From a virus: 25,539 nucleotides of DNA. The stretch is from positions 1 to 25,539 of the IMG/VR virus record IMGVR_UViG_3300031774_000134; one strand, given 5' to 3'. Of this stretch, positions 5,401 through 23,409 are shown piece by piece. Below the pieces are notes generated by a model that worked only from the letters and a program-made list of their open reading frames with translations, was not told the origin of the DNA and did no database searches. A program made the translations under genes and the position numbers. Each line of letters begins with the position of its first letter. Positions within the stretch are counted from its first letter, which is position 1.

Positions 5401-6820
5401 AAATTCACAGCTAAAAGAGGGTTCTGGTGCTTTTGTAGTTTATACAAATAATGCTTCAACAAATGACCCAGGTAACCCGTCAAATTTAGCCGAAAGGTTT
5501 AGGGTTGATTACCAGGGTCATACAACTGCTACTGGTAGTTTAAGAGCGCCTATCTTTTACGATTCATCAAACACGGGTTATTATACGTATCCGAGTAACC
5601 AATCTGTATTTTATAGATTAAAATTACAAGGCACTGGTACCGCAAATGCTGCTACGTTAGAAATAGACAACCCATCATCATCTGCATTTATTCATTCGGG
5701 TGAATTATTTACCACTAATATGACGGCTGGTCAGGCTAATATATTTGTTATAGGAAAAGAAGGTAGTACTAAAAATTCCGGTTATATAGGATATAATTAT
5801 GCTTCTGCTGGAAGTAATAACAACTACGTAACAATAGGACATTGGGGTGCGGATCATTTATTAAGAATTTATGGGGACGTGATAACAACGTCGCTTAGCT
5901 TTAGGGGTGATAGTGACGTAAGAGGTACTATATTTTACGATTCAAATGATACTGGATATTATGTAAATCCTGCTAGCACTTCACATCTTAATGTTGCAAA
6001 TTATGGATCGTTGACTTGGGACAACTATTCAAACAACCCCACGGCAAAAATTAATGTGGAAGTGGCAGGGGGAAATGCAATAAACATATATAATACACAT
6101 GAAAATAAAGCTTATTTAAATTTTATTGATTCACAAAGTGATGGCACTCAATATTGTAATTTATCTTTTGATTCAGGTAGTAATTATTTTACTCTAAACA
6201 ATATGGGGAACGATACCATGTTTGTTACTAGTGGTGGTTATAGTAAGTTAACAAACAATGGTAATACAACTTGGAACGCTTATAATTTTCACTCCATAAC
6301 TAACAGTGCAGCTGACCAACCTACGGTTATGATATATAGTCACGCTAGTAGTGGAAATGTATATGGTATAAACGTTTTACATAGGTCCACGAGCGCGAAT
6401 ACCTCAGGTAGATTTTTTTTAGGCGCAACTAATAGTGGTGCTAGTGAAAGAATAAAAATATATTCCAATGGTAATATTCAAAATAGTAACAATAGCTATG
6501 GGCAATTATCAGACATAAATTTAAAAGAAAATATTGTAGACGCTACACCAAAGCTAGATGAAATAAATCAAGTAAGAGTTGTAAACTTTAATTATATAGA
6601 TGATATAAACGAAGAAACGAACGCACCAACTAAACAAATAGGTGTAGTAGCACAAGAATTAGAAAAAATATTTCCAGGGTTAGTATATGAATGCGGTGAT
6701 ACAGAAACACCAACTAAATCAGTAAAATATTCAGTATTCGTGCCTATGCTTATAAAAGCAATGCAAGAATTAACTCAAGAAGTAAAAACATTAAAAAATC
6801 AAATAAATGGCATTAACTAA
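2405..6820 (+). CDS. Giant tail fibre with C-terminal S74 intramolecular chaperone
   Basis: This 1471-aa fibre protein begins MAKKFLTDIKIAAGVYDSSG, a segment like other fibre N-termini here. It then has a long beta-rich shaft with repeated modules: NTAYTYSQVGHLPLAGG twice, LNTLNELAAALGDD once, and two copies of an R-(A/G)-(P/T)-IFYDS-x-(N/D)-TGYY repeat near 5540 and 5918. The end is an S74 (endosialidase-type) intramolecular chaperone. It starts at S1369 in SDINLK, with K1374 five residues on as the expected Ser-Lys dyad, then IGVVAQELEKIFPGLV and VPMLIKAMQEL with a terminal coiled coil. In this family the domain trimerises the fibre and then cuts itself off before the serine, which would release a 103-aa fragment. 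The gene overlaps the next fibre by 14 bases. It is probably a host-recognition fibre. Confidence 0.85.
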   Translation: MAKKFLTDIKIAAGVYDSSGDIGNSGQVLSSTGSGVNWINTTTSASVIYQDGFTGNGSTTAFTLANSIDNENKTQVYIDGVYQHKDNYSLSGTTLTFSTAPPNSSDIEVISFSSVTAADDILYDTDFASAGLMTTNGSGVYSITTNNSSNWNTAYTYSQVGHLPLAGGAITGAITTNSTFDGRDVSVDGTKLDGIEANATADQTNAEIRAAVEAATDSNVFTDADHTKLNAIEASADVTDTANVTAAGALMDSELTDLAGVKAVTISDLATETYVDTAVSDLVDSSPATLNTLNELAAALGDDPNFATTTANSIGTKLPLAGGTLTGGLTGTTASFSGSITASGNSNSFGNTTIAALSASTGTFSASVTAAGNSNSFGATTFTGNVGFNDSTTLSLGGSGDLFLIHDATNSIIGNSTGNLIIRNDADDSDIIFQSDNGSGGRDNYLTIDGGVERIFVHKLMRFDDNVELRLGGNNDIRLYHNSTSGNNNFENHTGGLFVTQYADDGNIIFRSDDGSGGVAEYIVVNGGAGSVQLKHYGNTKFETTSTGIGVTGNGVFSGDITIGGKTYPKLNLTDNQGVARNFSIGTNNETFTVRNETAGADVFTIAGADNAATFAGSVKIESNDGLTIHATTDAVDAKIVFSSIVPSLDQKGTFAYNHANSLSYGSAESFVISGTESTMTILADGKLMYNEGIYSKPASGTGAGTRKDSNWDTAYTYSQVGHLPLAGGTVTGDITISSTSPELKIVDTNSFTDVNDRWIVRGGTDTLIMRWFDWSLGANTDALTLSPTVATFAGQVNATRFILPSTGTTTPVNHYIFTNNTNTGTGSMTIQAGGGSAGYGGGLKLYSHSHATKPGWVQAGISSGSGGKFTVNTAGTGGGSDVFMVDANGTTINGASQGLSFLGGNNRIYFNGHRALEGATDGGILQIGEGYSQIRIQDTTLIKYLTSADSSTFLTLHNDVGADLDTQKTFIDFIFEDDNDNDWPQVRIGAEVGHNGNANSQLKEGSGAFVVYTNNASTNDPGNPSNLAERFRVDYQGHTTATGSLRAPIFYDSSNTGYYTYPSNQSVFYRLKLQGTGTANAATLEIDNPSSSAFIHSGELFTTNMTAGQANIFVIGKEGSTKNSGYIGYNYASAGSNNNYVTIGHWGADHLLRIYGDVITTSLSFRGDSDVRGTIFYDSNDTGYYVNPASTSHLNVANYGSLTWDNYSNNPTAKINVEVAGGNAINIYNTHENKAYLNFIDSQSDGTQYCNLSFDSGSNYFTLNNMGNDTMFVTSGGYSKLTNNGNTTWNAYNFHSITNSAADQPTVMIYSHASSGNVYGINVLHRSTSANTSGRFFLGATNSGASERIKIYSNGNIQNSNNSYGQLSDINLKENIVDATPKLDEINQVRVVNFNYIDDINEETNAPTKQIGVVAQELEKIFPGLVYECGDTETPTKSVKYSVFVPMLIKAMQELTQEVKTLKNQINGIN
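6509..6817 (+). other. S74 chaperone domain of fibre 1, with predicted self-cleavage site
   Basis: This sub-feature marks residues 1369-1471 of the 1471-aa fibre. The catalytic-type Ser (SDINLK, first residue) and the Lys five residues later match the Ser-Lys dyad of S74 intramolecular chaperones. Cleavage is expected immediately before the Ser. The rest of the domain (KQIGVVAQELEKIFP, VFVPMLIKAMQELTQEVKTL) shows the family's conserved QE helix and the C-terminal trimeric coiled coil. Confidence 0.8.
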
Positions 6821-9800
6821 AGTAACAGGTGATTTTATAAAAGCGGGTTCAATAACCCAGGGACACTTACATTCAAGTCACGGTATAACAACATCTCACA
6901 TTGCTGAAGGTGATAAGTTATTTTTTACTAATGCTAGAGTTGATTCAAGAATAGGTAGCTTAAGCACATCAGATTTATCTGAAGGAACAAATTTATATTA
7001 TACTGATGCAAGAGCTAGAGCAGCAATTAGCGGTACTGGTTCCTTAAGTTATAATAGTACAACAGGTGTTATGTCATTTACAATGCCTGCTCAGAATACA
7101 TCAAATATTACTGAAGGTAGTAATTTATACTACACAGATGCAAGAGCTGACGCTAGAATTGCATTACAAGTTGGTAGTAACTTAGATTTAAGTAGTAAAT
7201 CAACTAGTGATTTAAGTGAAGGAACAAATTTATATTATACAGACGCAAGAGCTGATGCAAGGGTTGCTTTAATAGTTGATTCAGCACCTGGAACTTTAAA
7301 TACATTAAATGAATTAGCAGCAGCTCTAGGTGATGATGCAAACTTTAGCACAACAGTTACAAATAGTATTGCTTTGAAAGCACCATTAGCTTCACCATCG
7401 TTTACTGGTAATGCAACTTTTGCAGGGAATATAACAACAACTGGTAGTAGTATAACAGTAGATCCTGCTTCTGGTGATGCAATTTTAGTTTTACAAAGTC
7501 CAACACAAACATTAAGAATAGATCAAAATAGTATAAGAACTAGCACAAACTCTCCAATTTCATTTTTAACTAATAGCACAACAGCACTTGTGCTAGATAC
7601 GTCACAAAATGCAACTTTTTCAGGAGATATTACTGTAACAGGTGGCAGTAATTTATCTACTTTAGATTTGAATGCAGGAACGGTTTGGGATGCTACCACC
7701 CAAGGCACAGGAAAAGGTGCATTACATTTAGACCCTAATAGTGCCACTGACCACGCAGGAGCGGCAATAACATTTGGTGCTTCTGATGCTTCTAATGGTA
7801 CAAATGCGCAAGCAGGTATATATATTAGATCAGATGGTAGTTATGGTACTAAGATGTATTTTTCTACAACTGATTCATATGCTACAGGTTCTAAAACAGC
7901 AATGAACATATTGCATAATGGTCAGGTTAATATCACAAGAAGCAATCTTGTTGTAAACAGTGATGTTAGAGCGACTGTATTTTACGACTCTAATGATACT
8001 ACTTATTACATAGACCCCGCAAGCACATCTACATCAGGAAAATTTAGACAATATGTTAACATAGGTGATAGTTCATCTTATAGTTCAAATACAGGTACTT
8101 GGGGAGCTAGATTAAATGTTGTAGACAATGTACACGCTAAAATAGATGTTGGACAAGATGCTGACTCAATGTTGTCTACTTGGTATACTCACACTGGTCA
8201 TAGTGGTGCTTATTTTGGTATGGTAACAGGACATAACTTGTATTTAACCTCACATAACGCTACTAGACAAGTATTATTTAATGGATATAGTCAAGAAAAT
8301 GGCTCATATAGAGCACCTATATTTTACAGTTCAACTGATACAAACTCTTATTTGAATAATGCACAATTAGTTTTAAGAAGTGGTGACCCTACAATATATT
8401 TTAGGGATACAAACCATAGGTCAGTAGCATTACATAATAATTCAAATAGATTCTACGTACTTGGTGCGCCAGTTGATTCTACTAGCTACACACAAATAAG
8501 TGGCGTTTGGCCCTGGTATGTTCAACTAGATACTAATGATGTTTATACCGGTAGAATAGGATACGCAGGTAACTCTTATAGAGCACCTGTATTTTATGAT
8601 TCAAATGATACCTCATACTTTTTAAATCCTTCCGCTTCTGCCGGAAATGCATTAAAAACCATTGGCGATTGGCGACAAACTAGTAATTCTTGGTCTGGTG
8701 AAGTTGGAGGTAAAATGCAGTATCATAGTGATTCTTGGTATTTACAAGCTGCCGCATATGTACATTTTAGAAACGCTTCAGGTACCAATACTTTCCACGT
8801 TAGCGGCGGCGGTGTTGCGACAGTTTATGATTATTTAATTGGTACTAACTCATTAAGATCACCTATATTCTACGACTCAGATGATACGAATTATTATGTT
8901 GATCCCGCTGGAACATCTAGATTATATCATGCCCAAAATAACAATGGTAGTGAATTTATACATTGTAAACACTCAGGCTCAGACTTTGCTAGTGGTACTT
9001 TAGTAACAACTGACATTCCGGCTAATGCAACCAATGGAGCATCTTATATTATAGAAGTTACCGGTAAAAGTTATTCAGGAGAGCCACCTTTCGCTTTTAA
9101 AGCTCAAGGATATTTGTATAATAATACTATAATTAACCACAGTGGTATTAGTTATGGAAAACACTTAACTTCTACTAACCAAATAAAAGTTTTTAATCAT
9201 TCTGATAATAAACTTGCTTTTTGGTGGCCAAGAATATCTTATTGGAATTCATTTGAAGTAAGAGTAAGAGATGCTGGCGGAGGTTCAAGAAATAGAGCAC
9301 TGACAGTTGTTAATTCAACAGAGCCTTCTTCAAGTAAAAAAGTTACAACAACACTTTCTCAGGCTGCTGTATTAGGTTACAATTATGGAAGTGGAAGTTT
9401 ATATTCTGATCGATTATATGATTCAAATGACACGTCTTATTATGTGGATGCAAATAGTACAAGTAACATAAATAAAATACAAAGTAGTTCAAAACAAGCG
9501 GCGCCAAGATGGGATACAGCTTTTTACGTGTTGCAAGCGCAACATTGGTATGGTGATACTGGTAGTCAAGAAATGTTTATTGGTGAGAGTGGTAATACTA
9601 TAAATATAAGAGGTTCAATAACAGCTGCTGGTGTAATTGATTGTAATGCTGGTCATGGCGCAATAAATATTACAAATTCTTCTATATTATCTTCAGCATC
9701 ATCATCTTGGACAGGTAATCCAGGTGGTGCAGGTAAAATACAATACCATTCAAATAGATGGTATATAGTTGCAGATTCTTCATCAAACAGAATTGTTCAA

Positions 9801-11057
9801 TTCAGAAGAGACGGTAGTGATGTATCTTATATTGATAATTCAGGTAGATTAATGAATGCACCTGATTTAAGAGTACCTATATATTACGATACAAACACTG
9901 CTTATTACGGCGACTTCGGTAGTCACACTCATCTTAACACTATGAGTTGTGCTGGTGGTCTTCTTTTTGGTGATAATTATGGTGTTGGTGTTACTGGATT
10001 ATACTCAAGTTATAGAATACAAACCATATTTAATATGGGCGCTTCATATAAACTTCCAAACGATGGTAACTCAGTTGGAAATGCATATGGTTTATATTGG
10101 TCACACCAGAATGCTGGGACTAAAGGTGGGGCTAACAACTTAGCTTCTCACGGTCTGCTAATAATAGAGGGTGGTAGTTACAAAGGGTCTTGGGGTGGTG
10201 GAAGACTAGTTACAACTAGTGATATTAGAGGTACTATATTTTATGATTATAATAACACTGGTTATTATACAGACCCCGGATCAACTAGTGTTTTAAACGC
10301 GTTGCAATTTAATTATACACAGCATGGTTCTGCTAATAATATAAGAATGGGTAATAGCACCACTATGAATGCTATTTCATCTGGTACTAACAACGCAGCG
10401 TTTGGTGTTGAGGCACTAGGGGGTTGTAGTACTGGTAGTAGAAACTTTGCTTACGGTTATGCGGCATTAGGTAATTTAAGTAGTGGTGGTAGTAATATAG
10501 CTATGGGTGACGCAACGGGTTACAATGTAACTTCTGGAAGCAATAACTTGTTATTTGGTCAAAATGCTGGTAGAACAGGTTATCAGTCCCCTTACCAGTC
10601 TATAGCTGGGATAACAAGTGGTAGTAACCAAATACATATGGGTAATGAAAACCATACTACAGCAAGAATACAGATTAGCTGGACAGTAAATTCAGATGCA
10701 AGAGATAAAACAGATGTTAATCCTTTAGATTTAGGATTAGAATTTGTAAAAAAACTTAATCCTGTTACGTACAGATGGGACAAAAGATCAGACTATGAAG
10801 ATAGAACACCTGATGGAACTAACAAGTTACCAGAATTAACACTAGGGTTTTTAGCACAAGAAGTTGAAGTTGTTGAAAAATCGTTTGGCTATGATGTAGC
10901 TAATAAAACTAATTTAGTTGTTGATAGAATTGTTGACCAAGATCATTACGGTATAACATATGAAAAAATGGTTCCGGTGTTAACTAAGGCAATACAAGAG
11001 CAACAAGCAATTATAGATGACTTGAAGTCAAGACTTGAAACTTTAGAAAATAATTAG
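6807..11057 (+). CDS. Second giant tail fibre with YadA-like repeats and S74 chaperone
   Basis: This 1416-aa fibre begins MALTKVTGDFIKAGSITQGH. It then has three or four EG(T/S)NLYYTDARA(D/R)AR repeats (residues about 40-160) and a LNTLNELAAALGDD module also present in the preceding fibre. Next come seven diverged FYDS-x-DT-x-YY-x-x-P repeats (7965-10289) and a YadA-head-like set of repeats (about residues 1191-1258). The C-terminal S74 intramolecular chaperone starts at S1296 (SDARDK, Lys at 1301) and continues with LGFLAQEVE and YEKMVPVLTKAIQEQQ. Self-cleavage would release 121 residues. The start codon lies inside the end of the previous fibre gene (14-base overlap), so the two fibres are likely co-translated. 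It is probably a receptor-binding or long tail fibre. Paralogous modules shared with fibre 1 suggest duplication or domain shuffling. Confidence 0.85.
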   Translation: MALTKVTGDFIKAGSITQGHLHSSHGITTSHIAEGDKLFFTNARVDSRIGSLSTSDLSEGTNLYYTDARARAAISGTGSLSYNSTTGVMSFTMPAQNTSNITEGSNLYYTDARADARIALQVGSNLDLSSKSTSDLSEGTNLYYTDARADARVALIVDSAPGTLNTLNELAAALGDDANFSTTVTNSIALKAPLASPSFTGNATFAGNITTTGSSITVDPASGDAILVLQSPTQTLRIDQNSIRTSTNSPISFLTNSTTALVLDTSQNATFSGDITVTGGSNLSTLDLNAGTVWDATTQGTGKGALHLDPNSATDHAGAAITFGASDASNGTNAQAGIYIRSDGSYGTKMYFSTTDSYATGSKTAMNILHNGQVNITRSNLVVNSDVRATVFYDSNDTTYYIDPASTSTSGKFRQYVNIGDSSSYSSNTGTWGARLNVVDNVHAKIDVGQDADSMLSTWYTHTGHSGAYFGMVTGHNLYLTSHNATRQVLFNGYSQENGSYRAPIFYSSTDTNSYLNNAQLVLRSGDPTIYFRDTNHRSVALHNNSNRFYVLGAPVDSTSYTQISGVWPWYVQLDTNDVYTGRIGYAGNSYRAPVFYDSNDTSYFLNPSASAGNALKTIGDWRQTSNSWSGEVGGKMQYHSDSWYLQAAAYVHFRNASGTNTFHVSGGGVATVYDYLIGTNSLRSPIFYDSDDTNYYVDPAGTSRLYHAQNNNGSEFIHCKHSGSDFASGTLVTTDIPANATNGASYIIEVTGKSYSGEPPFAFKAQGYLYNNTIINHSGISYGKHLTSTNQIKVFNHSDNKLAFWWPRISYWNSFEVRVRDAGGGSRNRALTVVNSTEPSSSKKVTTTLSQAAVLGYNYGSGSLYSDRLYDSNDTSYYVDANSTSNINKIQSSSKQAAPRWDTAFYVLQAQHWYGDTGSQEMFIGESGNTINIRGSITAAGVIDCNAGHGAINITNSSILSSASSSWTGNPGGAGKIQYHSNRWYIVADSSSNRIVQFRRDGSDVSYIDNSGRLMNAPDLRVPIYYDTNTAYYGDFGSHTHLNTMSCAGGLLFGDNYGVGVTGLYSSYRIQTIFNMGASYKLPNDGNSVGNAYGLYWSHQNAGTKGGANNLASHGLLIIEGGSYKGSWGGGRLVTTSDIRGTIFYDYNNTGYYTDPGSTSVLNALQFNYTQHGSANNIRMGNSTTMNAISSGTNNAAFGVEALGGCSTGSRNFAYGYAALGNLSSGGSNIAMGDATGYNVTSGSNNLLFGQNAGRTGYQSPYQSIAGITSGSNQIHMGNENHTTARIQISWTVNSDARDKTDVNPLDLGLEFVKKLNPVTYRWDKRSDYEDRTPDGTNKLPELTLGFLAQEVEVVEKSFGYDVANKTNLVVDRIVDQDHYGITYEKMVPVLTKAIQEQQAIIDDLKSRLETLENN
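7965..10289 (+). repeat. Seven dispersed FYDS/YY repeats in fibre 2
   Basis: Diverged copies of a roughly 20-residue module begin near 7965, 8307, 8577, 8853, 9399, 9867 and 10224. The consensus is R-x-P-(I/V)-FYDS-N-DT-x-YY-x-D-P-x-STS. Clear examples are ATVFYDSNDTTYYIDP and SPIFYDSDDTNYYVDP. Two further copies lie in fibre 1 (5540 and 5918). Each copy precedes a different beta-rich segment of 80-180 residues, so the module looks like a linker or clasp between interchangeable shaft or adhesin domains. Confidence 0.8.
10377..10580 (+). repeat. YadA-like head repeats in fibre 2
   Basis: About four tandem units of roughly 15-16 residues fit the pattern S-G-x-N-x-x-x-G-x-x-A: GTNNAAFGVEAL, GSRNFAYGYAAL, GSNIAMGDATGYN and GSNNLLFGQNAG. 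This is the left-handed beta-roll repeat of YadA-type trimeric adhesin heads, known from bacterial autotransporters and also from phage fibres upstream of S74 domains. It implies that the fibre is trimeric here. Confidence 0.7.
10692..11054 (+). other. S74 chaperone domain of fibre 2, with predicted self-cleavage site
   Basis: Residues 1296-1416 of the second fibre. The motif SDARDK provides the Ser and the Lys five residues later. The usual Leu before the Lys is Asp here, unlike SDINLK in fibre 1. The conserved AQEVE helix, the GITYEKMVPVLTKAIQEQQ segment and a terminal heptad-like helix (LKSRLETLENN) follow, as in other S74 domains. Confidence 0.78.
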
Positions 11058-11835: not shown

Positions 11836-12132
11836 ATGACCTATTTTTATAAAACCTATTCCTGGGGGAACAATAGTACCCAAGGAATACCCGAAGGAAC
11901 CAGAAAGCTTTGGGAACACATCGTTGAGAAAAAAAACTGGCGTATAGTTCAACTACCTAACGGGTTTTTTCAAGCAGAACATAAAGACCTGAATGATGAA
12001 TCCAAATGGATAGATGTTACAAGACGTGAAACTGTAGACAGCTGCGAGGCTGCTATTGATGGAAGTATTGAACATTATCAAAAAAAATTAGAGTTTTTAA
12101 AAGGACCTAAAGTAGTAAAGAGCTTTAAATAA
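11836..12132 (+). CDS. Conserved small phage protein (98 aa)
   Basis: This 98-aa soluble protein is rich in Trp (four) and has the segments IPEGTRKLWEHI, WRIVQLPNGFFQAEHK, WIDVTRRETVDSCEAAID and LEFLKGPKVVKSF. The central beta hairpin followed by a helix and a terminal GPKVVK strand resembles a small conserved protein seen in marine phages, always of unknown function. There is no signal peptide, membrane segment or metal site. It shares the G/C-richer codon use of the two preceding genes (ACC, CCC, CAC, ATC, GAG), which marks the three as a unit that may be strongly expressed. It is followed by a 27-base A/T-rich leader and groEL. Confidence 0.7.
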   Translation: MTYFYKTYSWGNNSTQGIPEGTRKLWEHIVEKKNWRIVQLPNGFFQAEHKDLNDESKWIDVTRRETVDSCEAAIDGSIEHYQKKLEFLKGPKVVKSFK

Positions 12133-12159: not shown

Positions 12160-13719
12160 ATGGAATATAATAACCCAAGTGAGATAGTTAAAGATTTGTC
12201 CTTCGGGGCAGATGCTAACAATAAAATAATGATAGGTGTAGGAAAATTAACACAAGCTGTTAAGTCTACACTAGGAGCTTCAGGAAAATGTGTAATATAT
12301 GAAGATTCATTAGGTAAACCGGTTATAACTAAAGATGGTGTAACCGTAGCTGAATCAGTAATATTATTTGATCCTTTAGAAAATATAGGAGCAACACTTT
12401 TAAAAGAAGCTGCTAAAAACACAGTGAAAGAAGCAGGAGACGGTACCACTACGGCAACCGTCCTTGCTTACTCACTTTTAAAAAATTGTAAAAAAGAAAA
12501 ATATAACATAAGAGATATAAAACTAGGTTTACAAACCGGTTTATTTAAAATAAATAATTACTTAGATAAAATATCTATTGATGTTAAACATGATAAACTT
12601 AAAGATGTTAGCACTATATCGGCTAACAATGATAGTATTTTAGGTTCTATAATTGCTGATGCCTACAATAAGGTGGGTAAAAATGGAGTTGTATTAATGG
12701 AAGAGTCAGAAACTGAAAAAACTTATTACGAAAACGTAGAAGGTGTACAGTTTGACTCTGGTTTGAAATCAAATCATTTAACTACAAACGAAAATAAAGA
12801 TAAATCTATTTTAGATAATCCTTATATATTAATAGTAGCTTCTCCAATTACTAATATTAGAAAAATACAAGCTGTATTAGAACATATAATTAAAACAAAA
12901 AGAAGTTTATTAATTGTGGCTTCTGTAGATCAACAGCCTATGTCTGCATTATTAACTAATAAAGTTAAAGGTAATATTAGGGTTAACGTTGTTGATCTTC
13001 CTGGTTTTGCTTCTACTAAAAGAGATACGATAGAAGATTTAGCCTGTTTAACTGGGGCTAAAATAATAGATGAGCAACTAGGAGATGATTTAGACTTAAT
13101 CCAACCTGATGTGTTAGGTGAATGCTTAAAGTCCATTACAGATGATAAAAACACTGTTCTTACTATAGATGAAGTTAATGAAGAAGCTAAAGAAAGAATA
13201 AAAAGTGTGTATAGCAAAATAGAAACAGAGACTAATGCTTTTATAAAAAATAAATTAGAACAAAGAATAGCAATGTTGACAGGTTCTGTTGCTATTATAA
13301 AAGTTGGTGCTAATTCAAAAGTAGAGTTAAAAGAAAAAAAAGACAGAGTTGAAGACGCGATATATGCAACTAAAGCAGCGCTACAAGAAGGTATTGTTCC
13401 AGGAGGTGGAGTTGCACTTTTAAATGCATCACAAAAAATTAAAGCTGAAAATGTAGGAGAAGAAATATTATTAAACTCAATAAAATATCCTTATTCTGTT
13501 ATAATAGAAAATGCTGGTTTACCATACTTAGAAAGTAATAAAAAAGGATTTGGAATAAATGTTGTAAATGGTAAAGAAACTAATATGTTAAAGGCTGGAA
13601 TAATAGATCCTGTATTAGTTACAAAAACAGCTTTAAAAAATGCAGTTAGTGTTGTTAGTACTATAATATCTGCAGATTGTGTAATTTCTAATATGAGAAT
13701 GAATGCAGGCGATAAATAA
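12160..13719 (+). CDS. groEL: Phage-encoded GroEL-like chaperonin (Hsp60)
   Basis: This 519-aa group I chaperonin (E. coli GroEL has 548 aa) should fold client proteins in an ATP-driven cage. ATPase residues are intact: TLG at 37-39, D59 in ITKDGVTVAES (E. coli D52), DGTTTAT at 94-100 (D87 loop), GGG at 415-417, D399 in VEDAIYATKAA (D398), and D483 in IIDP (D495). The apical domain is about residues 195-375. Departures, from by-eye alignment: the N-terminus is 7 residues longer. Ring-ring residues R452 and E461 are replaced by S446 and P455. Apical hydrophobics Y199, Y203 and L234 become L, H and Q. The GGM tail is absent (it ends NMRMNAGDK). The start at 12160 is the only suitable ATG. The end overlaps groES by 17 bases, in the reverse of the bacterial order. 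Likely clients are capsid or fibre proteins (inference). Confidence 0.95.
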   Translation: MEYNNPSEIVKDLSFGADANNKIMIGVGKLTQAVKSTLGASGKCVIYEDSLGKPVITKDGVTVAESVILFDPLENIGATLLKEAAKNTVKEAGDGTTTATVLAYSLLKNCKKEKYNIRDIKLGLQTGLFKINNYLDKISIDVKHDKLKDVSTISANNDSILGSIIADAYNKVGKNGVVLMEESETEKTYYENVEGVQFDSGLKSNHLTTNENKDKSILDNPYILIVASPITNIRKIQAVLEHIIKTKRSLLIVASVDQQPMSALLTNKVKGNIRVNVVDLPGFASTKRDTIEDLACLTGAKIIDEQLGDDLDLIQPDVLGECLKSITDDKNTVLTIDEVNEEAKERIKSVYSKIETETNAFIKNKLEQRIAMLTGSVAIIKVGANSKVELKEKKDRVEDAIYATKAALQEGIVPGGGVALLNASQKIKAENVGEEILLNSIKYPYSVIIENAGLPYLESNKKGFGINVVNGKETNMLKAGIIDPVLVTKTALKNAVSVVSTIISADCVISNMRMNAGDK

Positions 13720-13960
13720 TTACATCATAATAGAAAAAATAAAAGAAGAATCAAAAAAAGTTAATGGACTTATATTAACTAATAATGATAAAAAAGATAT
13801 ACGTTATTTAAAAGGTCACGTAATAAGTGTTGGTAACCAAACAGATGGTTTAAAACCAAATGATAAAATTTATTATGATAAACATGCTGGCCATATGGTC
13901 GAATATAACGATAAAACATATTATGTTATTAGACAACAAGATGTTGTTATTGTTATATGA
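13703..13960 (+). CDS. groES: GroES-like co-chaperonin, short form
   Basis: This 85-aa protein has the GroES layout: first strand NYIIIEKIKEE (6-16), a mobile loop KKVNGLILTNN (18-28), strand GHVISVGN (38-45), LKPNDKIYYDKH (50-61), and final strands KTYYVIRQQDVVIVI. The loop tripeptide LIL (23-25) replaces IVL of E. coli GroES, which docks on the GroEL apical domain. Between VGN and the GD-like KPND turn, only a few residues remain where GroES has its roof hairpin (E. coli is 97 aa). T4 Gp31 likewise lacks this loop, which enlarges the chamber. The start inside the groEL end (17-base overlap) places M1 where GroES normally begins. The stop overlaps the next start as ATGA. It probably caps the neighbouring GroEL, the host GroEL, or both. 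Confidence 0.85.
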   Translation: MQAINNYIIIEKIKEESKKVNGLILTNNDKKDIRYLKGHVISVGNQTDGLKPNDKIYYDKHAGHMVEYNDKTYYVIRQQDVVIVI

Positions 13961-14397
13961 AACTTTCTTCAAGTGATTTAAAAGAATTACAAATATTAAA
14001 ATACTATAGAATAGTTAGAAAGTGGGCTTGTAAAACATATAAAATAAAAGAAGCGGACTTAGAACTTCTTATATATTTAGACTGTTTGAATAGATTTTCT
14101 ATAAAAGATTTTAAAGATGGTGTTTACACATATAGTTGGGATAAACATCGTTGGGAAAGATTAAGAAACGAGGGTTGGATAGATGTTTGGAGAAATAGAA
14201 ATAGAACAACTATAAAATATAGCATATACTGTGTTTCTTTTAAAACAAAACAATTAATTAGTAGAGTTTACAGAATACTATTAGGTGATGAAGATGTACC
14301 TGTTACTAGAAAAAATATTTTTTATAAAAATAAATCATATACTGATAAAGTTTTTAATAAAGCTTTTGATGATATGATAAAAGATAAAGAACGTTAA
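13957..14397 (+). CDS. Winged-helix (MarR-like) DNA-binding protein candidate
   Basis: This 146-aa basic protein fits a winged-helix pattern. An N-terminal helix (LQILKYYRIVRKWACKTY, residues 11-28) leads to a helix KEADLELLIYLDCL (32-45) and a short F-IKDF helix. A candidate recognition helix and wing follow (KHRWERLRNEGWIDVW, then RNRTTIKYSIYCVS), with a C-terminal helix KTKQLISRVYRILLG. This resembles MarR-family regulators and similar DNA-binding proteins in phages of Bacteroidota. It could regulate late genes or bind DNA during packaging. The fold is inferred from pattern only. It begins in an ATGA overlap with groES, so the two are likely translationally coupled. Lys/Arg content is high and base composition matches its neighbours. 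Confidence 0.55.
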   Translation: MKLSSSDLKELQILKYYRIVRKWACKTYKIKEADLELLIYLDCLNRFSIKDFKDGVYTYSWDKHRWERLRNEGWIDVWRNRNRTTIKYSIYCVSFKTKQLISRVYRILLGDEDVPVTRKNIFYKNKSYTDKVFNKAFDDMIKDKER

Positions 14398-14414: not shown

Positions 14415-14489
14415 ATGCCTTACGGAAAAAAATCAAAATTAGTTAAAAAAATCTCAAAGAAAAAATCTAAGAAAAAATCTAAGAAATAA
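14415..14489 (+). CDS. 24-aa Lys/Ser-rich basic peptide
   Basis: This is a very short frame starting MPYGKKSKLVKK and continuing as KKKSKK repeats. Three points support it as real. The start is preceded by a TTAAAATTAAAATT leader of the kind used by other genes here. It exactly fills the space between the winged-helix gene and the next gene. Its TAA overlaps the next ATG as TAATG. Small MPYGK-starting basic peptides also occur in other marine phages. More than half of the residues are Lys, so it may bind nucleic acid, but this is inferred from charge alone. Confidence 0.5.
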   Translation: MPYGKKSKLVKKISKKKSKKKSKK

Positions 14490-14746
14490 TGCCTGCAAAA
14501 AGAGTAAGAAAAACTACTAAAGGTAAAAGTAGAAACTTTCGTACTGTTAAAGAAGGCGCCGGTATGACTAAAGCTGGTGTAAAAAAGTATAGAAAAAACA
14601 ACCCTGGTAGTAAATTAAAAACCGCTGTAACAGGCAAAGTAAAAAAAGGCAGCAAAGCAGCTAAACGTAGAAAATCTTTTTGTGCTAGATCAAAAGGTTG
14701 GACAGGTGAAAGAGGCAAAGCAGCTAGAAGACGTTGGAAATGTTAA
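14489..14746 (+). CDS. Arg/Lys-rich small protein (DUF6321-like)
   Basis: This 85-aa, strongly basic protein has segments GAGMTKAGVKKYRKNNPGS, KLKTAVTGKVKKGSKAAKRR, SFCARSKGW and a C-terminal KAARRRWKC. The order GAG, YRK-NPGS, LKTAVTG, SKAAKRRKSFCARS and RRRWKC matches a small family widespread in tailed phages, which I recall as DUF6321. Its function is not established. The two conserved Cys (68 and 85) and the dense positive charge could suit nucleic-acid binding or virion DNA condensation, which is inference. It begins in a TAATG overlap with the preceding 24-aa basic peptide and is followed 10 bases later by another basic protein. Confidence 0.75.
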   Translation: MPAKRVRKTTKGKSRNFRTVKEGAGMTKAGVKKYRKNNPGSKLKTAVTGKVKKGSKAAKRRKSFCARSKGWTGERGKAARRRWKC

Positions 14747-14756
14747 AATTATAATT

Positions 14757-14870
14757 ATGGCAAAAAAGAAATCAAAAAAGAATCCATGTTGGAAAGGTTA
14801 CCAAATGGTAGGTATGAAAAAAAAAGGTGGTAGAAATGTTCCTAATTGCGTTCCTAATAAGAAAAAATAG
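14757..14870 (+). CDS. 37-aa basic Cys-containing peptide
   Basis: The product reads MAKKKSKKNPCWKGYQMVGM and then KKKGGRNVPNCVPNKKK. The frame is open further upstream to an ATG at 14682, but that start lies inside the preceding gene. The ATG at 14757 is preferred because it follows AAAATTATAATT, the leader type used throughout this window, and because the C-x-GY-x-x-x-G-x-KKK-G-x-x-VPNC-VP pattern of similar marine phage peptides begins just after a short Lys-rich N-terminus. Two Cys (11 and 32) might bind metal or form a disulfide. It is the third of three consecutive tiny basic genes. Its TAG overlaps the next GTG start (TAGTG). Confidence 0.65.
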   Translation: MAKKKSKKNPCWKGYQMVGMKKKGGRNVPNCVPNKKK

Positions 14871-17752: not shown

Positions 17753-17971
17753 ATGAATTTAATTAGAAAAATAAGTGTAGGCAGAGACTATAAAGACTCT
17801 GCAATGCACTATGCAGTTGGCCAAGAAGTATATGGTGGCCATATTATATGTGATATTATTGAAAAAGAAGAAAAATTTAGTATATTTATAAAAAAACAAG
17901 GTGAAATACTACCTTGGAAAGATTTTAATAAAAATATGGCTGTTAGTGTAGAATATAATTTACAATATTAA
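17753..17971 (+). CDS. Conserved small protein (72 aa), unknown function
   Basis: This 72-aa soluble protein begins MNLIRKISVGRDYKDSAMHY, followed by VGQEVYGGHIICDIIE, FSIFIKKQGEILPWKDFN and VSVEYNLQY. The run of short beta strands with a Gly-Gly turn suggests a small beta-barrel or SH3-like fold. I recall similar proteins in the lysis-terminase interval of marine Bacteroidota phages without a known role. It lies 3 bases after the holin and ends in a TAATG overlap with the 195-aa gene, so it is part of one translationally coupled run. Confidence 0.65.
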   Translation: MNLIRKISVGRDYKDSAMHYAVGQEVYGGHIICDIIEKEEKFSIFIKKQGEILPWKDFNKNMAVSVEYNLQY

Positions 17972-18558
17972 TGCAAAGTTTATATGCTTTTATTGTTGAA
18001 CCTATTAAATCAAGATATAATAATATTAAAAAAGTAGGTGAAAAAAACTTAATATTAAATACCGAGATACAAGATCATAGATATGTTAATAGAAATGCAA
18101 TTATATTATCTGTACCTAAAAACATAAAAACAAATATAAAAATAGGAGATGAAGTAATAGTTCATCATAATATATTTAGAAGATATAATAATATAAGAGG
18201 TGAAGAAGTAGATAGTTCATCTTACTTTAAAGAAAATAAGTATTTTATTTATTTAGATCAAATTTTCATGTATAAACAAAATAAAACATGGAAATCAATT
18301 GATGATTTTTGTTTTGTAAAACCTATTGAAAAAAATAAGTTTTTTTCTACAGAAAAGGAAAGTGAATTAATAGGTATCGTTAAGTATATAGAAAACAATA
18401 AAATTATTAAAAAAAATACACTAATTGGATTTACTCCAAATAGTGAATATGAATTTATTATAGATAACGAAAGACTATATAGAGTTCCAATTAAATCAAT
18501 TTGTATAAAATATGAACGTCAAGGACACGAAAAAGAATATAATCCAAGCTGGACATAA
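17971..18558 (+). CDS. Putative tandem GroES-like co-chaperonin
   Basis: This 195-aa protein reads like two GroES-type barrels in a row. Domain 1 (about 5-102) has strand YAFIVEPIK, a loop NNIKKVGEKNLILNTEI with LIL at the place of the GroES mobile-loop tripeptide, strand NAIILSVP, the turn IKIGDEVIVHHN (56-67), an insertion (70-90) and a closing YFIYLDQIFMYK. Domain 2 (about 112-182) has DFCFVKPIEK, a loop, ELIGIVKYIE, IKKNTLIGFTPNSEYEF, and closing LYRVPIKSICIKYE. Both repeat the GroES order strand-loop-strand-(K)GD-strand-closing strands. The fold is inferred by pattern alone; the family may otherwise be an uncharacterised phage protein. It also shares the N-terminal string QSLYxxIxEPIK with the large terminase. 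It overlaps the next gene by 47 bases. Confidence 0.5.
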   Translation: MQSLYAFIVEPIKSRYNNIKKVGEKNLILNTEIQDHRYVNRNAIILSVPKNIKTNIKIGDEVIVHHNIFRRYNNIRGEEVDSSSYFKENKYFIYLDQIFMYKQNKTWKSIDDFCFVKPIEKNKFFSTEKESELIGIVKYIENNKIIKKNTLIGFTPNSEYEFIIDNERLYRVPIKSICIKYERQGHEKEYNPSWT

Positions 18559-18784
18559 AGCTGTAGATGAATTAATAAAAGTAGCTAAAGAACCTATAGT
18601 AGATTCAGATGATGATATATCTGCTGATAGATTAAAGAATGCTGCTGCTACAAAAAAACTAGCTATATTTGATGCTTTTGAAATACTAAATAGGATACAG
18701 GAAGAAGAAAGTTTATTAGAAAATAAACCTATAGAAAAAAAAGAACAGAGTTTTAAAGGTTTTGCTGAAAGAAGATCTAAATAA
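18512..18784 (+). CDS. Putative small terminase subunit or packaging accessory
   Basis: This 90-aa helical protein lies directly upstream of the large terminase (TAATG overlap), the usual position of a small subunit. Segments: IIQAGHKAVDELIKVAKEPI (10-29), an acidic hinge DSDDDIS, then a long helix DRLKNAAATKKLAIFDAFEI and LNRIQEEESLLEN, and a C-terminal FKGFAERRSK. Related-looking short proteins precede terminases in phages of Bacteroidota. No classical helix-turn-helix is evident in the N-terminus, so assignment rests mostly on position and helical make-up. The start at 18512 lies 47 bases inside the preceding gene, with no better downstream ATG. Confidence 0.45.
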   Translation: MNVKDTKKNIIQAGHKAVDELIKVAKEPIVDSDDDISADRLKNAAATKKLAIFDAFEILNRIQEEESLLENKPIEKKEQSFKGFAERRSK

Positions 18785-20988
18785 TGTACGAACAAAGTTT
18801 ATATAAAATAATAGAACCTATTAAAAAAACTACTATTAATAGATTGAATAAATCAAAAAAATGGGAGTATGGTTATAACAAAGAATATGATTTAGTAGTT
18901 ATAAGTAAAACAGGTGAAATAGGAGATGTGTATAGCATACAGAACTTAAAAATAGCATTGCCTAAAACACAAAAAGTTTCTAATGAAAACAATAAATGGC
19001 AACAACACGAATATCCTAAGGAACTAAAAAGAATTAAAAGTATATTTGACTGGAAAGAACTACCAAATGAATTTAAAGAAAAATGGCATAAATATATTGA
19101 CAGAGAGTTTACGAGACGTGAAGAAGGTCATTGGTTCAATAATAAGGGCAATTCTACTTATATTACTGGGACTCATTATATGTACTTGCAATGGACAAAA
19201 ATTGATGTCGGAAGACCTGATTTTAGAGAAGCAAACAGATTATTCTTTATTTTCTGGGAAGCATGTAAAGCAGATAAACGATGTTATGGAATGTGCTATC
19301 TTAAAAATAGACGTTCAGGTTTTTCATTTATGGCATCAGGAGAAACTGTCAACTTAGCAACTATATCTTCTGACGCACGCTATGGTATATTGTCTAAATC
19401 TGGAGCTGATGCTAAAAAAATGTTTACAGATAAAGTAGTACCAATATCGATTAATTATCCATTTTTTTTTAGACCTATACAAGATGGTATGGATCGACCT
19501 AAAACTGAGCTTGCATATAGAGTACCTGCATCAAAATTTACACGTAAAAGACTAGAATCTAAAGATAAACCTCAAGAAATGGAGGGATTAGATACAACCA
19601 TTGATTGGAAAAATACGGGTGATAACAGTTATGATGGTGAAAAGCTTGCACTTCTTGTACATGATGAAGCTGGAAAATGGGAAAGACCAGAAAACATATT
19701 GAATAACTGGAGGGTTACAAAAACAACCTTGAGGTTAGGTAGTAGAATTATAGGTAAATGTATGATGGGTTCAACAAGTAACTCTCTTGATAAAGGTGGA
19801 AATAATTTTAAACAATTATATTATGATTCAGACGTCACAAAAAGAAATAAAAATGGACAGACTCGCTCTGGATTATATAGTTTGTTTATACCTATGGAAT
19901 GGAATTACGAAGGATTCATTGATACTTATGGATTACCTGTATTCGACACACCAAAAGAAGCAGCTATTGGACCTCATGGTGAAACTATCGACATCGGGGT
20001 CATTGAACATTGGGAAAATGAAGCAGATGGTTTAAAAAGCAATCATGATGCTTTAAATGAGTTTTATAGACAGTTTCCAAGAACAGAGGAACATGCTTTT
20101 AGAGATGAAACAAAAAATAGTATATTTAACTTAGTTAAATTATATGAGCAAATAGATTACAACGAAGATTTAAAAAGTAGTGGTATTGTTACTAGAGGTA
20201 ATTTTCAATGGAAAAATGGAGTTAAGGATACTGAGGTTAATTTTTATCCCGATATGAAAGGTAGATTTTATATTTCATGGATTCCACAAATGAATTTACA
20301 AAACAATGTTGTAATGAAAAATGGTTTTAAAAAACCAGGTAATGAACATATTGGTGCTTTTGGTTGTGACTCTTATGATATATCAGGTACTGTTGACAGA
20401 AGAGGATCTAAAGGTTCTTTACATGGTTTAACTAAATTTAGCATGGAAGATGCGCCAATAAATACATTTTTTTTAGAATATGTTGCAAGACCACAAACTG
20501 CAGAAATATTCTTTGAAGATGTACTTATGTCTTTAGTTTTTTATGGGATGCCACTATTAGCTGAAAACAACAAACCTCGTTTACTTTATTACTTAAAAAG
20601 AAGAGGTTATAGAGGGTATTCTATGAATAGACCTGATAAAACATATAGTAGATTATCAACAACAGAAAAAGAAGTTGGTGGTATACCTAATACAGGTGAA
20701 GATATTAAACAAGCTCATGCTGCTGCAATAGAAACATATATACAGCAACATGTAGGAATAAAACCTGATGGATCTTACGGTTCTATGTATTTTAATAGAA
20801 CATTAAATGATTGGTCAAAGTTTGATATAACAAATAGAACAAAATTTGATGCTACTATAAGTTCTGGATTAGCTATAATGGCTTGTAATAGGCATTTATA
20901 TACTCCTAGAGCGGATAAAGTAGTTAAAAAACTAGATTTTGGATTTAAAAAATACGATAACAGAGGATTTTCTTCAAAAATAATATAA
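18784..20988 (+). CDS. terL: Terminase large subunit (packaging ATPase/nuclease)
   Basis: This 734-aa motor protein cuts concatemeric DNA and pumps it into proheads through the portal. The ATPase half shows a deviant Walker A, KNRRSGFSF (174-182), of the R-x-x-G-x-S type common in terminases. It also has a Walker B KLALLVHDEAG (287-297, D294 E295), and a coupling motif MMGSTSN (327-333). FYRQFPRTEEHAF (427-439) is the terminase signature between the two halves. The nuclease half has an acidic strand GAFGCDSYDISG (524-535, D529/D532), LLAENNKPRL (591-600, E594) and later aspartates in DWSKFDITNRTKFD. It is longer than T4 gp17 (610 aa). N-terminal residues 4-14 (QSLYKIIEPIK) resemble the upstream 195-aa protein. 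The portal gene follows after 3 bases. Confidence 0.9.
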   Translation: MYEQSLYKIIEPIKKTTINRLNKSKKWEYGYNKEYDLVVISKTGEIGDVYSIQNLKIALPKTQKVSNENNKWQQHEYPKELKRIKSIFDWKELPNEFKEKWHKYIDREFTRREEGHWFNNKGNSTYITGTHYMYLQWTKIDVGRPDFREANRLFFIFWEACKADKRCYGMCYLKNRRSGFSFMASGETVNLATISSDARYGILSKSGADAKKMFTDKVVPISINYPFFFRPIQDGMDRPKTELAYRVPASKFTRKRLESKDKPQEMEGLDTTIDWKNTGDNSYDGEKLALLVHDEAGKWERPENILNNWRVTKTTLRLGSRIIGKCMMGSTSNSLDKGGNNFKQLYYDSDVTKRNKNGQTRSGLYSLFIPMEWNYEGFIDTYGLPVFDTPKEAAIGPHGETIDIGVIEHWENEADGLKSNHDALNEFYRQFPRTEEHAFRDETKNSIFNLVKLYEQIDYNEDLKSSGIVTRGNFQWKNGVKDTEVNFYPDMKGRFYISWIPQMNLQNNVVMKNGFKKPGNEHIGAFGCDSYDISGTVDRRGSKGSLHGLTKFSMEDAPINTFFLEYVARPQTAEIFFEDVLMSLVFYGMPLLAENNKPRLLYYLKRRGYRGYSMNRPDKTYSRLSTTEKEVGGIPNTGEDIKQAHAAAIETYIQQHVGIKPDGSYGSMYFNRTLNDWSKFDITNRTKFDATISSGLAIMACNRHLYTPRADKVVKKLDFGFKKYDNRGFSSKII

Positions 20989-20991
20989 TTA

Positions 20992-23409
20992 ATGTCAAAA
21001 CAAATAACAAAAGGACGGTTTCCTAGCCAATCAGCTAGTGATGGTGAAAAATCTTCATCTACATATGGTTTAGAAGTTGCAAAAGCTATAGAAGCTGAAT
21101 GGTTTAAAAGAGATTCAGGTTCTGTTAGATACTATGCTAATAGAGATCAATTTCACAGATTAAGGCTTTATGCTAGAGGAGAGCAGAGCATACAAAAATA
21201 TAAAGATGAATTATCAATTAATGGTGATTTATCATATTTAAATTTAGACTGGAAGCCAATACCTATAATTCCTAAGTTTGTTGATATTGTAGTAAATGGT
21301 ATATCAGAAAGAATGTATGATATAAAAGCTTATTCTCAAGATCAAGCTTCTATAGATACAAGAACAAGTTATGTTGATTCTATTGTTAGAGACATGAAAA
21401 ACAAATCATTATTTGATGAGTTACAGGATTCTTTTTCAATTAACATGTACAATAATGACAGAGAAACTTTGCCAGAAACACAAGAAGAGTTAGAACTTCA
21501 TATGCAACTTGATTATAAACAATCAATAGAAATAGCTGAAGAAGAAGCAATAAATAATGTTTTTGACTATAATAAATATGATTTATTAAAAAAGAGATTA
21601 GATTATGATTTAGCTGTTTTAGGTATTGGAGCTGTTAAAAATAGTTTTAATACTTCTGAAGGTATAAAAATAGATTATGTAGATCCTGCTGATCTAGTTT
21701 ATTCATATACTGAATCACCATACTTTGATGATATATATTATGTAGGAGAGGTAAAAAGAGTTAGCTTGATTGATTTGAAAAAACAGTATCCTGAATTAAA
21801 CAGTGATGATATTAAAGAATTAGAAGACTCTAGCAATAGTGCTATGTTATATAATAAGTCTTATTCTTCTGCAGATTCTCCAGATAATAATTACGTTTAT
21901 ATTTTATATTTTGAATATAAAACATTTAATAATCAAGTTTATAAAATTAAAGAAACATCAACTGGTTCACAAAAATCTATAAAAAAGACTGATCAATTTG
22001 ATCCACCAAAAAATGCAGAAAACAGGTTTCAAAAAGTAAATAGATCAATAGAGGTTATTTATGAAGGTGCTAAAATAATTGGATCAAATAAACTACTTAA
22101 ATGGAAGTTAGCAGAAAATATGACAAGACCATATTCTGATATAACAAAAGCACAACTATCTTATAGTATTGTTGCTCCACGTATTTATAAAGGTAAAATA
22201 GAATCTTTAGTAAGTAGAATGACAACGTTTGCTGATATGGTTCAATTGACTCATTTAAAATTACAACAAGTATTATCAAGAATGGTACCGGATGGTGTTT
22301 ATTTAGATGCTGATGGTATAGCTGAAATAGATTTAGGTAACGGAACTAATTACAATCCACAAGAAGCATTAAACATGTATTTCCAAACGGGTTCTGTTAT
22401 AGGTAGATCTATGACTGGTGATGGTGAATATAATCATAGTCGTATGCCAGTTCAAGAATTACAATCATCTTCTGGTGGACAGAAAATAGCTAGTTTAATT
22501 CAATCTTATAATTATTATTTACAAATGATTAGAGATGTGACTGGTTTAAATGAAGCAAGAGATGGTAGTATGCCTGATAAAAATGCTTTAGTAGGTTTAC
22601 AAAAAATAGCCGCTGCTAATTCAAATGTTGCTACTAGGCATGTTTTACAAGCTGGATTATATTTAACTTTAAAAACAGCAGAAGCAATATCATTAAGAGT
22701 TTCTGATGTGTTACAATATGGAAATACAACTCAAGCATTTATAAATGGTGTTGGTAAATTTAATGTGGCTAGTTTAAAAGAAATACAAACGTTACATTTG
22801 CATGATTTTGGTATATTTTTAGAATTAGCTCCAGATGAAGAACAGAAACAAATTCTTGAAAATAATATTCAAATGGCATTACAACAAAAGCAAATAGAAA
22901 TAGAAGATGCTATTGATGCGAGAGAGGTTAAAAATTTAAAACTTGCTAATCAATTACTTAAACTAAGAAGAAAGAAAAAGTTTGAAAAAGATAGACAACT
23001 TCAAATGGAAAATATTGAAGCTCAAAGCAGATCAAATGCACAAGCTGCGCAGGCTGCTGCTCAGAGTGAAGCTCAGAAAGAACAGGTGATAATGCAAGGT
23101 AAAGCTAAAATGTCAGAAATAGAACATCAATTTGAAATACAAAAGCTTGAAAGAGAAGCTGAAATTAAAAAAGAATTAATGTTTCACGAGTTTCAACTTA
23201 ACATGCAGCTTAAACAAGCTGAAACACAGGTGATAAATAATAAAGAAGAATACAAAGAAAACAGAAAAGACAAAAGAACAAAAATACAAGCTACACAACA
23301 AAGTGAGCTTATAAACCAGCGACAAACTGGAAAACCACCAAAAGATTTTGAATCTGCAGGATTTGATAATTTAGGTGGATTTGGATTAGAACAATTTGAT
23401 CCAAGATAA
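20992..23409 (+). CDS. Portal protein
   Basis: This 805-aa protein, directly downstream of the large terminase, forms the dodecameric DNA gate at one capsid vertex. The N-terminal part shows a portal-like core: YYANRDQFHRLRLYARGEQS, WKPIPIIPKFVDIVVNGI, a helix-rich stem region, and the conserved-type segment TGLNEARDGSMPDKNALVG (about 510-530). Residues about 615-760 are an almost uninterrupted charged helix (Gln/Glu/Lys/Ala-rich, e.g. AQAAQAAAQSEAQKEQV), predicted to be a coiled coil and comparable to the C-terminal barrel or crown of large P22-like portals. The tail ends GGFGLEQFDPR. The long core plus barrel explains a size well above T7-like portals (about 535 aa). The scaffold gene follows after a 26-base A/T-only spacer. 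Confidence 0.85.
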   Translation: MSKQITKGRFPSQSASDGEKSSSTYGLEVAKAIEAEWFKRDSGSVRYYANRDQFHRLRLYARGEQSIQKYKDELSINGDLSYLNLDWKPIPIIPKFVDIVVNGISERMYDIKAYSQDQASIDTRTSYVDSIVRDMKNKSLFDELQDSFSINMYNNDRETLPETQEELELHMQLDYKQSIEIAEEEAINNVFDYNKYDLLKKRLDYDLAVLGIGAVKNSFNTSEGIKIDYVDPADLVYSYTESPYFDDIYYVGEVKRVSLIDLKKQYPELNSDDIKELEDSSNSAMLYNKSYSSADSPDNNYVYILYFEYKTFNNQVYKIKETSTGSQKSIKKTDQFDPPKNAENRFQKVNRSIEVIYEGAKIIGSNKLLKWKLAENMTRPYSDITKAQLSYSIVAPRIYKGKIESLVSRMTTFADMVQLTHLKLQQVLSRMVPDGVYLDADGIAEIDLGNGTNYNPQEALNMYFQTGSVIGRSMTGDGEYNHSRMPVQELQSSSGGQKIASLIQSYNYYLQMIRDVTGLNEARDGSMPDKNALVGLQKIAAANSNVATRHVLQAGLYLTLKTAEAISLRVSDVLQYGNTTQAFINGVGKFNVASLKEIQTLHLHDFGIFLELAPDEEQKQILENNIQMALQQKQIEIEDAIDAREVKNLKLANQLLKLRRKKKFEKDRQLQMENIEAQSRSNAQAAQAAAQSEAQKEQVIMQGKAKMSEIEHQFEIQKLEREAEIKKELMFHEFQLNMQLKQAETQVINNKEEYKENRKDKRTKIQATQQSELINQRQTGKPPKDFESAGFDNLGGFGLEQFDPR

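Follow-up and report, generated by a model that had tools for sequence, protein, structure and literature searches.

The 25,539-base IMG/VR virus contig IMGVR_UViG_3300031774_000134, the whole of which was analyzed here (hereafter, the window), comes from a marine virus of Bacteroidota-type bacteria and encompasses three genes with similarity to chaperonin components. A groEL gene is followed by a groES gene that starts within the end of groEL and, further downstream, a gene located between the holin and the terminase encodes a tandem, two-domain Cpn10-like protein (Table 1). The original prediction for this DNA had pointed to a full-length groEL followed by groES with a 17-base overlap, and the coordinates and the matches to Pfam and PHROGs bear this out; it had missed the tandem gene at 17971–18558. 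The candidate second lid encoded by that gene is more interesting than the reversed pair, which is less new than had been claimed.

The groES start codon (ATG, 13703) lies within the last codons of groEL, which terminates with TAA at 13717–13719. Of the 41 distinct contigs from relatives in IMG/VR, 38 have an overlap of either 14 or 17 bases between the two genes, which is thus not a chance occurrence; two others have an overlap of 4 bases, and the last, L032, has a disrupted groEL reading frame. For the analysis of gene order, 50 loci containing both genes were collected through two IMG/VR searches and from deposited genomes, and the removal of six contigs that had been fetched twice left 44 distinct contigs; eight of the sampled contigs are 97–100% identical to the window in GroEL. 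In all 44, groEL precedes groES on the same strand. Among 80 best-matching bacterial control loci, groES lies directly before groEL in 75 and was not seen in 5, with no case of the reversed order, so that the predicted departure from the bacterial arrangement holds. In phi38:1 and immuto, groES comes first, and phi14:2 and three Vibrio phages have no annotated groES next to groEL; hence, the groEL-groES order is a trait of this phage clade rather than of phages generally. The groES gene is not broken but is a complete open reading frame (ORF) under purifying selection (ratio of nonsynonymous to synonymous substitution rates, dN/dS, of 0.11–0.17 against close relatives), and the values for groES and the tandem gene together (0.11–0.20 in close relatives) likewise indicate purifying selection.

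Two side observations concern variation in this region. Within its first 107 residues, the broken groEL of L032 (10001–11809) shares 88% identity with that of the window, a value that falls to 59% in the middle of the gene, and the break may stem from sequencing error, decay or recombination. Contigs L010–L018, L021 and L030 are mosaic with respect to the window, with mostly 88–97% identity in the holin, 76–87% in the ORF preceding groEL, 70–71% in GroEL and 56–58% in GroES, which suggests recombination around the chaperonin genes.

The original prediction had treated a phage with both genes, in this order, as unusual, and here it fared less well. Phages encoding both GroEL and GroES are already reported in a passage of PMC7185714 that cites Marine 2017, and both proteins are reported for Panino (PMC11590407), whereas the reversed order is already present in the deposited genomes of Elemovirus, Panino and ctfjg026.

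We aligned the proteins of the window with the GroEL and GroES of Escherichia coli and Flavobacteriia, and with the GroEL of immuto. The window GroEL is homologous to Cpn60 across all three domains, matching positions 1–488 of the 490 in the Cpn60_TCP1 profile, and its residues 10–515 match GroEL chains in a phmmer search. Positions T30, G32, D52, G86, D87, T89–T91, D398, G415 and D495 are identical to those of E. coli; the residues for ATP binding and catalysis (GDGTTT, D52, D398) are kept, the replacement of P33 by A being the only change among the positions checked in this set. Together with the conserved gene order, the retention of the ATPase residues agrees with the earlier view of a coupled, self-contained pair. 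The apical positions that we take to bind substrates and GroES in E. coli GroEL (Y199, Y203, F204, L234, L259, V263 and V264) carry the changes Y199L, Y203H, F204L, L234Q, L259M, V263L and V264T in the window protein, and the standard residues are retained in two Flavobacteriia GroELs and in immuto.

The profile and the predicted fold both identify the window GroES as a Cpn10 beta-barrel, and its Foldseek matches are Cpn10/GroES chains. The AlphaFold2 model, with a predicted local distance difference test (pLDDT) score of 86, is poorly ordered only in the region of the mobile loop, which contains a hydrophobic tripeptide (GLILT where E. coli has GGIVLTG). Most of the roof beta-hairpin is missing, with a roof loop 9 residues shorter than that of E. 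coli and 4 residues shorter than those of Zobellia and Flavobacterium (Flavobacteriia). Not every co-chaperonin has such a hairpin: T4 gp31 functions as one without roof loops, whose absence is thought to aid the folding of the large capsid protein gp23 (PMC6318259). The phage GroES shares with gp31 the fold, the mobile loop and the shortened or missing roof loops, but T4 has no GroEL, so that gp31 uses the host GroEL, and the gp31 mobile loop is longer.

The tandem protein matches PHROG 13932 (co-chaperonin GroES; 2e-18, residues 1–155), and its AlphaFold2 model (pLDDT 76.5; predicted template modeling score 0.72) consists of two barrels, that is, two predicted Cpn10-like domains in a single chain. 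The best match of this model in the PDB is 7ekq_R, the Cpn20 chain of a Chlamydomonas complex (Foldseek 5.9e-5; VIA Z 10.0 over 150 residues, model residues 1–182). The matches ranking next are GroES/Cpn10 chains, which for the most part cover the C-domain and reach Z 8.7, and T4 gp31, which covers the N-domain with Z 6.9. The C-domain aligns with the single-domain GroES (hhalign E 5.8e-6), the C-domains of the phi38:1 and Baltivirus orthologs pass the Pfam cut-off for Cpn10, and the Elemovirus ortholog is annotated as chaperonin cpn10. For the tandem protein of the window, no match to Cpn10 passes the Pfam cut-off, and comparison of the profiles of the tandem and single-domain families taken alone gives a weak signal. 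Comparison of the N-half with the C-half yielded no sequence evidence of duplication and a PDB sequence search with the tandem profile produced nothing convincing, so the case for two domains is built on the structure and the orthologs. In a passage of PMC8776804, 'chaperonin cpn10' is listed as a core gene of Pervagoviridae, without mention there of a tandem nature; we found no published description of a phage tandem Cpn10 in the literature covered, which did not extend to the survey of Marine et al. 2017 (ISME J).

We searched 13 whole records for GroEL, GroES and the tandem gene. GroEL was found in 10, all of which also encode the single-domain GroES and the tandem protein; a more distant relative, Gundel_1, has none of the three genes. 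The complete genomes of Baltivirus phi19:3 and phi13:2 (Pachyviridae) encode a single-domain GroES, located near nuclease genes, and a 200-residue tandem protein, just upstream of the terminase, like the phages above but with no GroEL found. The two lids are therefore independent of a phage GroEL, and we rejected the proposition that the tandem gene occurs only where GroEL is present. The genes of this unusual set of two lids without a ring lie at 3029–3631 of L208 (phi19:3; tandem) and 1617–1871 of L211 (single co-chaperonin).

Several known phages share the arrangement to different degrees. Elemovirus, which infects Flavobacterium (vB_FspP_elemoE_10-3D, MT497078), Maribacter phage Panino and ctfjg026 have groEL followed by groES, a tandem cpn10-like gene upstream of the terminase, and homologous terminase and portal proteins, but their GroEL and GroES are 35–39% and about 30–33% identical, respectively, to those of the window. 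The junctions differ as well, with a 1-base overlap in elemo, a 4-base gap in ctfjg026 and a 121-base gap in Panino, and in elemo the chaperonin genes are on the strand opposite to the terminase operon. Cellulophaga phages phi38:1, phi40:1 and Calle (Pervagoviridae) resemble the window in encoding GroEL, a single-domain Cpn10 and the tandem protein (as shown for phi38:1), but there the gene for the single-domain Cpn10 lies ahead of groEL and is separated from it by one gene. Given that phi38:1, Elemovirus and Panino are isolated phages carrying the same three genes, a complete virus-owned chaperonin is open to genetics and biochemistry, and the two lids of Baltivirus, which come with no GroEL, provide a natural contrast for studying how viruses switch between using the ring of the host and having their own.

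We consider it probable that these genes encode a phage-dedicated group I chaperonin comprising a coupled pair, a ring with its own lid, virion proteins as clients, and a tandem second lid. Under this scenario, groEL and groES would be translated as a coupled pair, as the conserved 14–17 base overlap suggests, and the catalytic residues, the fold and the mobile loop are consistent with an ATP-driven ring with a detachable lid of its own. Because the residues at the apical lid-binding positions now differ from those of the host type, the phage ring is probably best served by the phage lid. GroES, like T4 gp31, lacks most of the roof loop, so the top of the chamber probably has a wider opening, which would suit large phage virion proteins. 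The tandem Cpn10, encoded beside the holin, terminase and portal genes, appears to be part of the same system, judging from co-occurrence and fold; in phages without a GroEL of their own, it probably recruits the host GroEL. Some observations weigh against this scenario. About 4 kb separate groEL-groES from the tandem gene, which is also found without GroEL, and this makes the partner of its product less certain; the hhalign match of its N-domain to Cpn10 is weak, so that homology is indicated there mainly by the predicted structure; and the apical differences could stem from different clients rather than from a different lid.

Alternatively, the tandem protein could act not as a co-chaperonin but in the virion or in packaging, having put the Cpn10 fold to another use, which seems to us possible although doubtful. 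Its gene adjoins the terminase in the relatives checked, its C-terminal YNPSW tail is very conserved across the marine clade, and the C-domain lacks a long mobile loop; however, the next ORF overlaps part of the tail, a possible reason for its conservation, and the N-domain retains a long loop (residues 15–38) that is poorly ordered in the model, predicted to be disordered and better conserved than both domain cores (0.79 against 0.67 overall in the window family), as would be expected of a partner-binding loop. The annotation of the orthologs in Baltivirus, phi38:1 and Calle as GroES or cpn10, along with the Pfam matches of the Baltivirus and phi38:1 C-domains, also argues for a co-chaperonin.

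If the tandem protein is a co-chaperonin, the system might be organized like that of chloroplasts, with one GroEL ring capped by a mixed lid of GroES and the Cpn20-like protein; the two lids would then be the older core, which in Baltivirus would act on the GroEL of the host, with the phage GroEL gained or lost at a later stage. We put forward this version tentatively, as the less likely one. Chloroplast Cpn20 of Chlamydomonas and Arabidopsis similarly combines two Cpn10-like domains head to tail and occurs beside a single-domain Cpn10, and in plants Cpn10 and Cpn20 form mixed rings (PMC5780408, PMC4242682). The phage protein, however, is only about 13% identical in the structural alignment and has a long mobile loop in the first domain alone. 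The sharing of one lid by GroES and the tandem protein, by analogy with plant Cpn10/Cpn20, is more speculative than the coupled pair and the ring with its own lid. If real, a viral Cpn20-like protein would mean that double-length lids are not confined to plastids, and it would be relevant to the long-standing question of how an even-numbered lid can match a ring with seven-fold symmetry.

A further possibility, which we regard as unlikely, is that the phage GroEL works independently of a lid, in the manner of phi-EL, with GroES serving the host GroEL. The inter-ring residues R452, E461, S463 and V464 of E. coli GroEL are not kept in the window protein, so its ring may be altered or single, and the chaperonin of phage EL functions without an encapsulation step and fails to bind the GroES of E. 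coli (PMC7185714). Phage EL gp146 is likewise a phage-encoded GroEL homolog, but no GroES is known from this phage, and the protein shares 22% identity with GroEL (PMC7185714), compared with about 40% identity of the window GroEL to bacterial GroELs among the matches listed. Moreover, practically every relative has groES coupled to groEL, and GroES retains its mobile loop, both of which favor the dedicated ring with its own lid.

Phylogenies were built for GroEL only, GroES offering too few residues for an informative tree. In the first tree, of 115 rows including 80 bacterial GroELs, 23 marine GroELs form one group (support 99) which, together with elemo, Panino, ctfjg026, phi38:1 and phi14:2, is separated from all 80 bacterial sequences by a starred branch; the joins among the long-branched isolates in this tree are unreliable. 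In a careful tree without the long-branched rows, the window clade is supported at 100/100 and lies outside all bacteria. Because the phage clade falls outside all sampled bacterial GroELs, recent capture from a host is not supported by these sequence comparisons, in line with the original prediction; the outcome that this prediction had named as refuting, placement of both genes within a single recent host clade, did not emerge for GroEL. It is very improbable that the locus is a recently captured host groE operon with shuffled genes, an ordinary auxiliary gene set: GroELs from several phage lineages do group within bacteria (those of SJC03 and LR756501 among Bacteroidota, those of Vibrio phages among Gammaproteobacteria), but the window clade is monophyletic outside them, its closest bacterial GroEL is just 42% identical among the matches listed, and Flavobacteriia GroELs carry Gly-Met tails and standard apical residues, both of which the window GroEL lacks.

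Table 1 Chaperonin genes of the window and neighboring features
Feature	Coordinates	Strand	Evidence or remark
groEL, group I chaperonin-like, 519 aa (amino acids)	12160..13719	+	complete; Pfam Cpn60_TCP1 9.7e-54, PHROG groEL 8.6e-129
groES, single-domain co-chaperonin-like, 85 aa	13703..13960	+	complete; Pfam Cpn10 5.2e-15, PHROG groES 9e-17
groEL end / groES start overlap, 17 bases	13703..13719	+	probable translational coupling
Tandem (two-domain) Cpn10-like, Cpn20-like candidate co-chaperonin, 195 aa	17971..18558	+	between holin and terminase
Conserved 98-aa ORF	11836..12132	+	55–100% identity, upstream of groEL in most relatives
Conserved 146-aa ORF	13957..14397	+	overlaps groES stop by 4 bases (ATGA)
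90-aa ORF between tandem co-chaperonin and terminase	18512..18784	+	no family match
Terminase large subunit	18784..20988	+	PHROG 6681, 2.1e-167; morphogenesis operon downstream of tandem co-chaperonin
Portal protein	20992..23409	+	PHROG 6547, 6.8e-152

The terminase and portal proteins relate the window to Elemovirus and the podovirus ctfjg026, and the genes tested in a 61.6-kb contig (L002/G001) match those of the window at 100% protein identity. The 146-residue ORF that follows groES is 52–73% identical in 13 relatives, with 33 invariant residues, and comes after groES, sometimes beyond an insertion, in the relatives with sequence there; searches including Pfam and PHROGs matched it to no known family, and it is weakly similar to genes on the other strand near groES in elemo and Panino. 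A small ORF occupies the position equivalent to 18512..18784 in ctfjg026 and Baltivirus. No tRNA or Rfam elements were found in a scan, and the promoter and terminator scans of the AT-rich chaperonin region were uninformative.

Upstream of the chaperonin genes are two very large tail-fiber or spike genes, 2405–6820 (1471 aa), whose product contains a chaperone-of-endosialidase (Peptidase_S74) domain, and 6807–11057 (1416 aa). Parts of the latter recur upstream of groEL in relatives, in many pieces and with varying identity, which suggests module swapping of fiber tips. Downstream, at 14489–14870, are two small, very basic ORFs of 85 and 62 aa, the first of which matches DUF6321; conceivably, these encode DNA-binding or condensing proteins.
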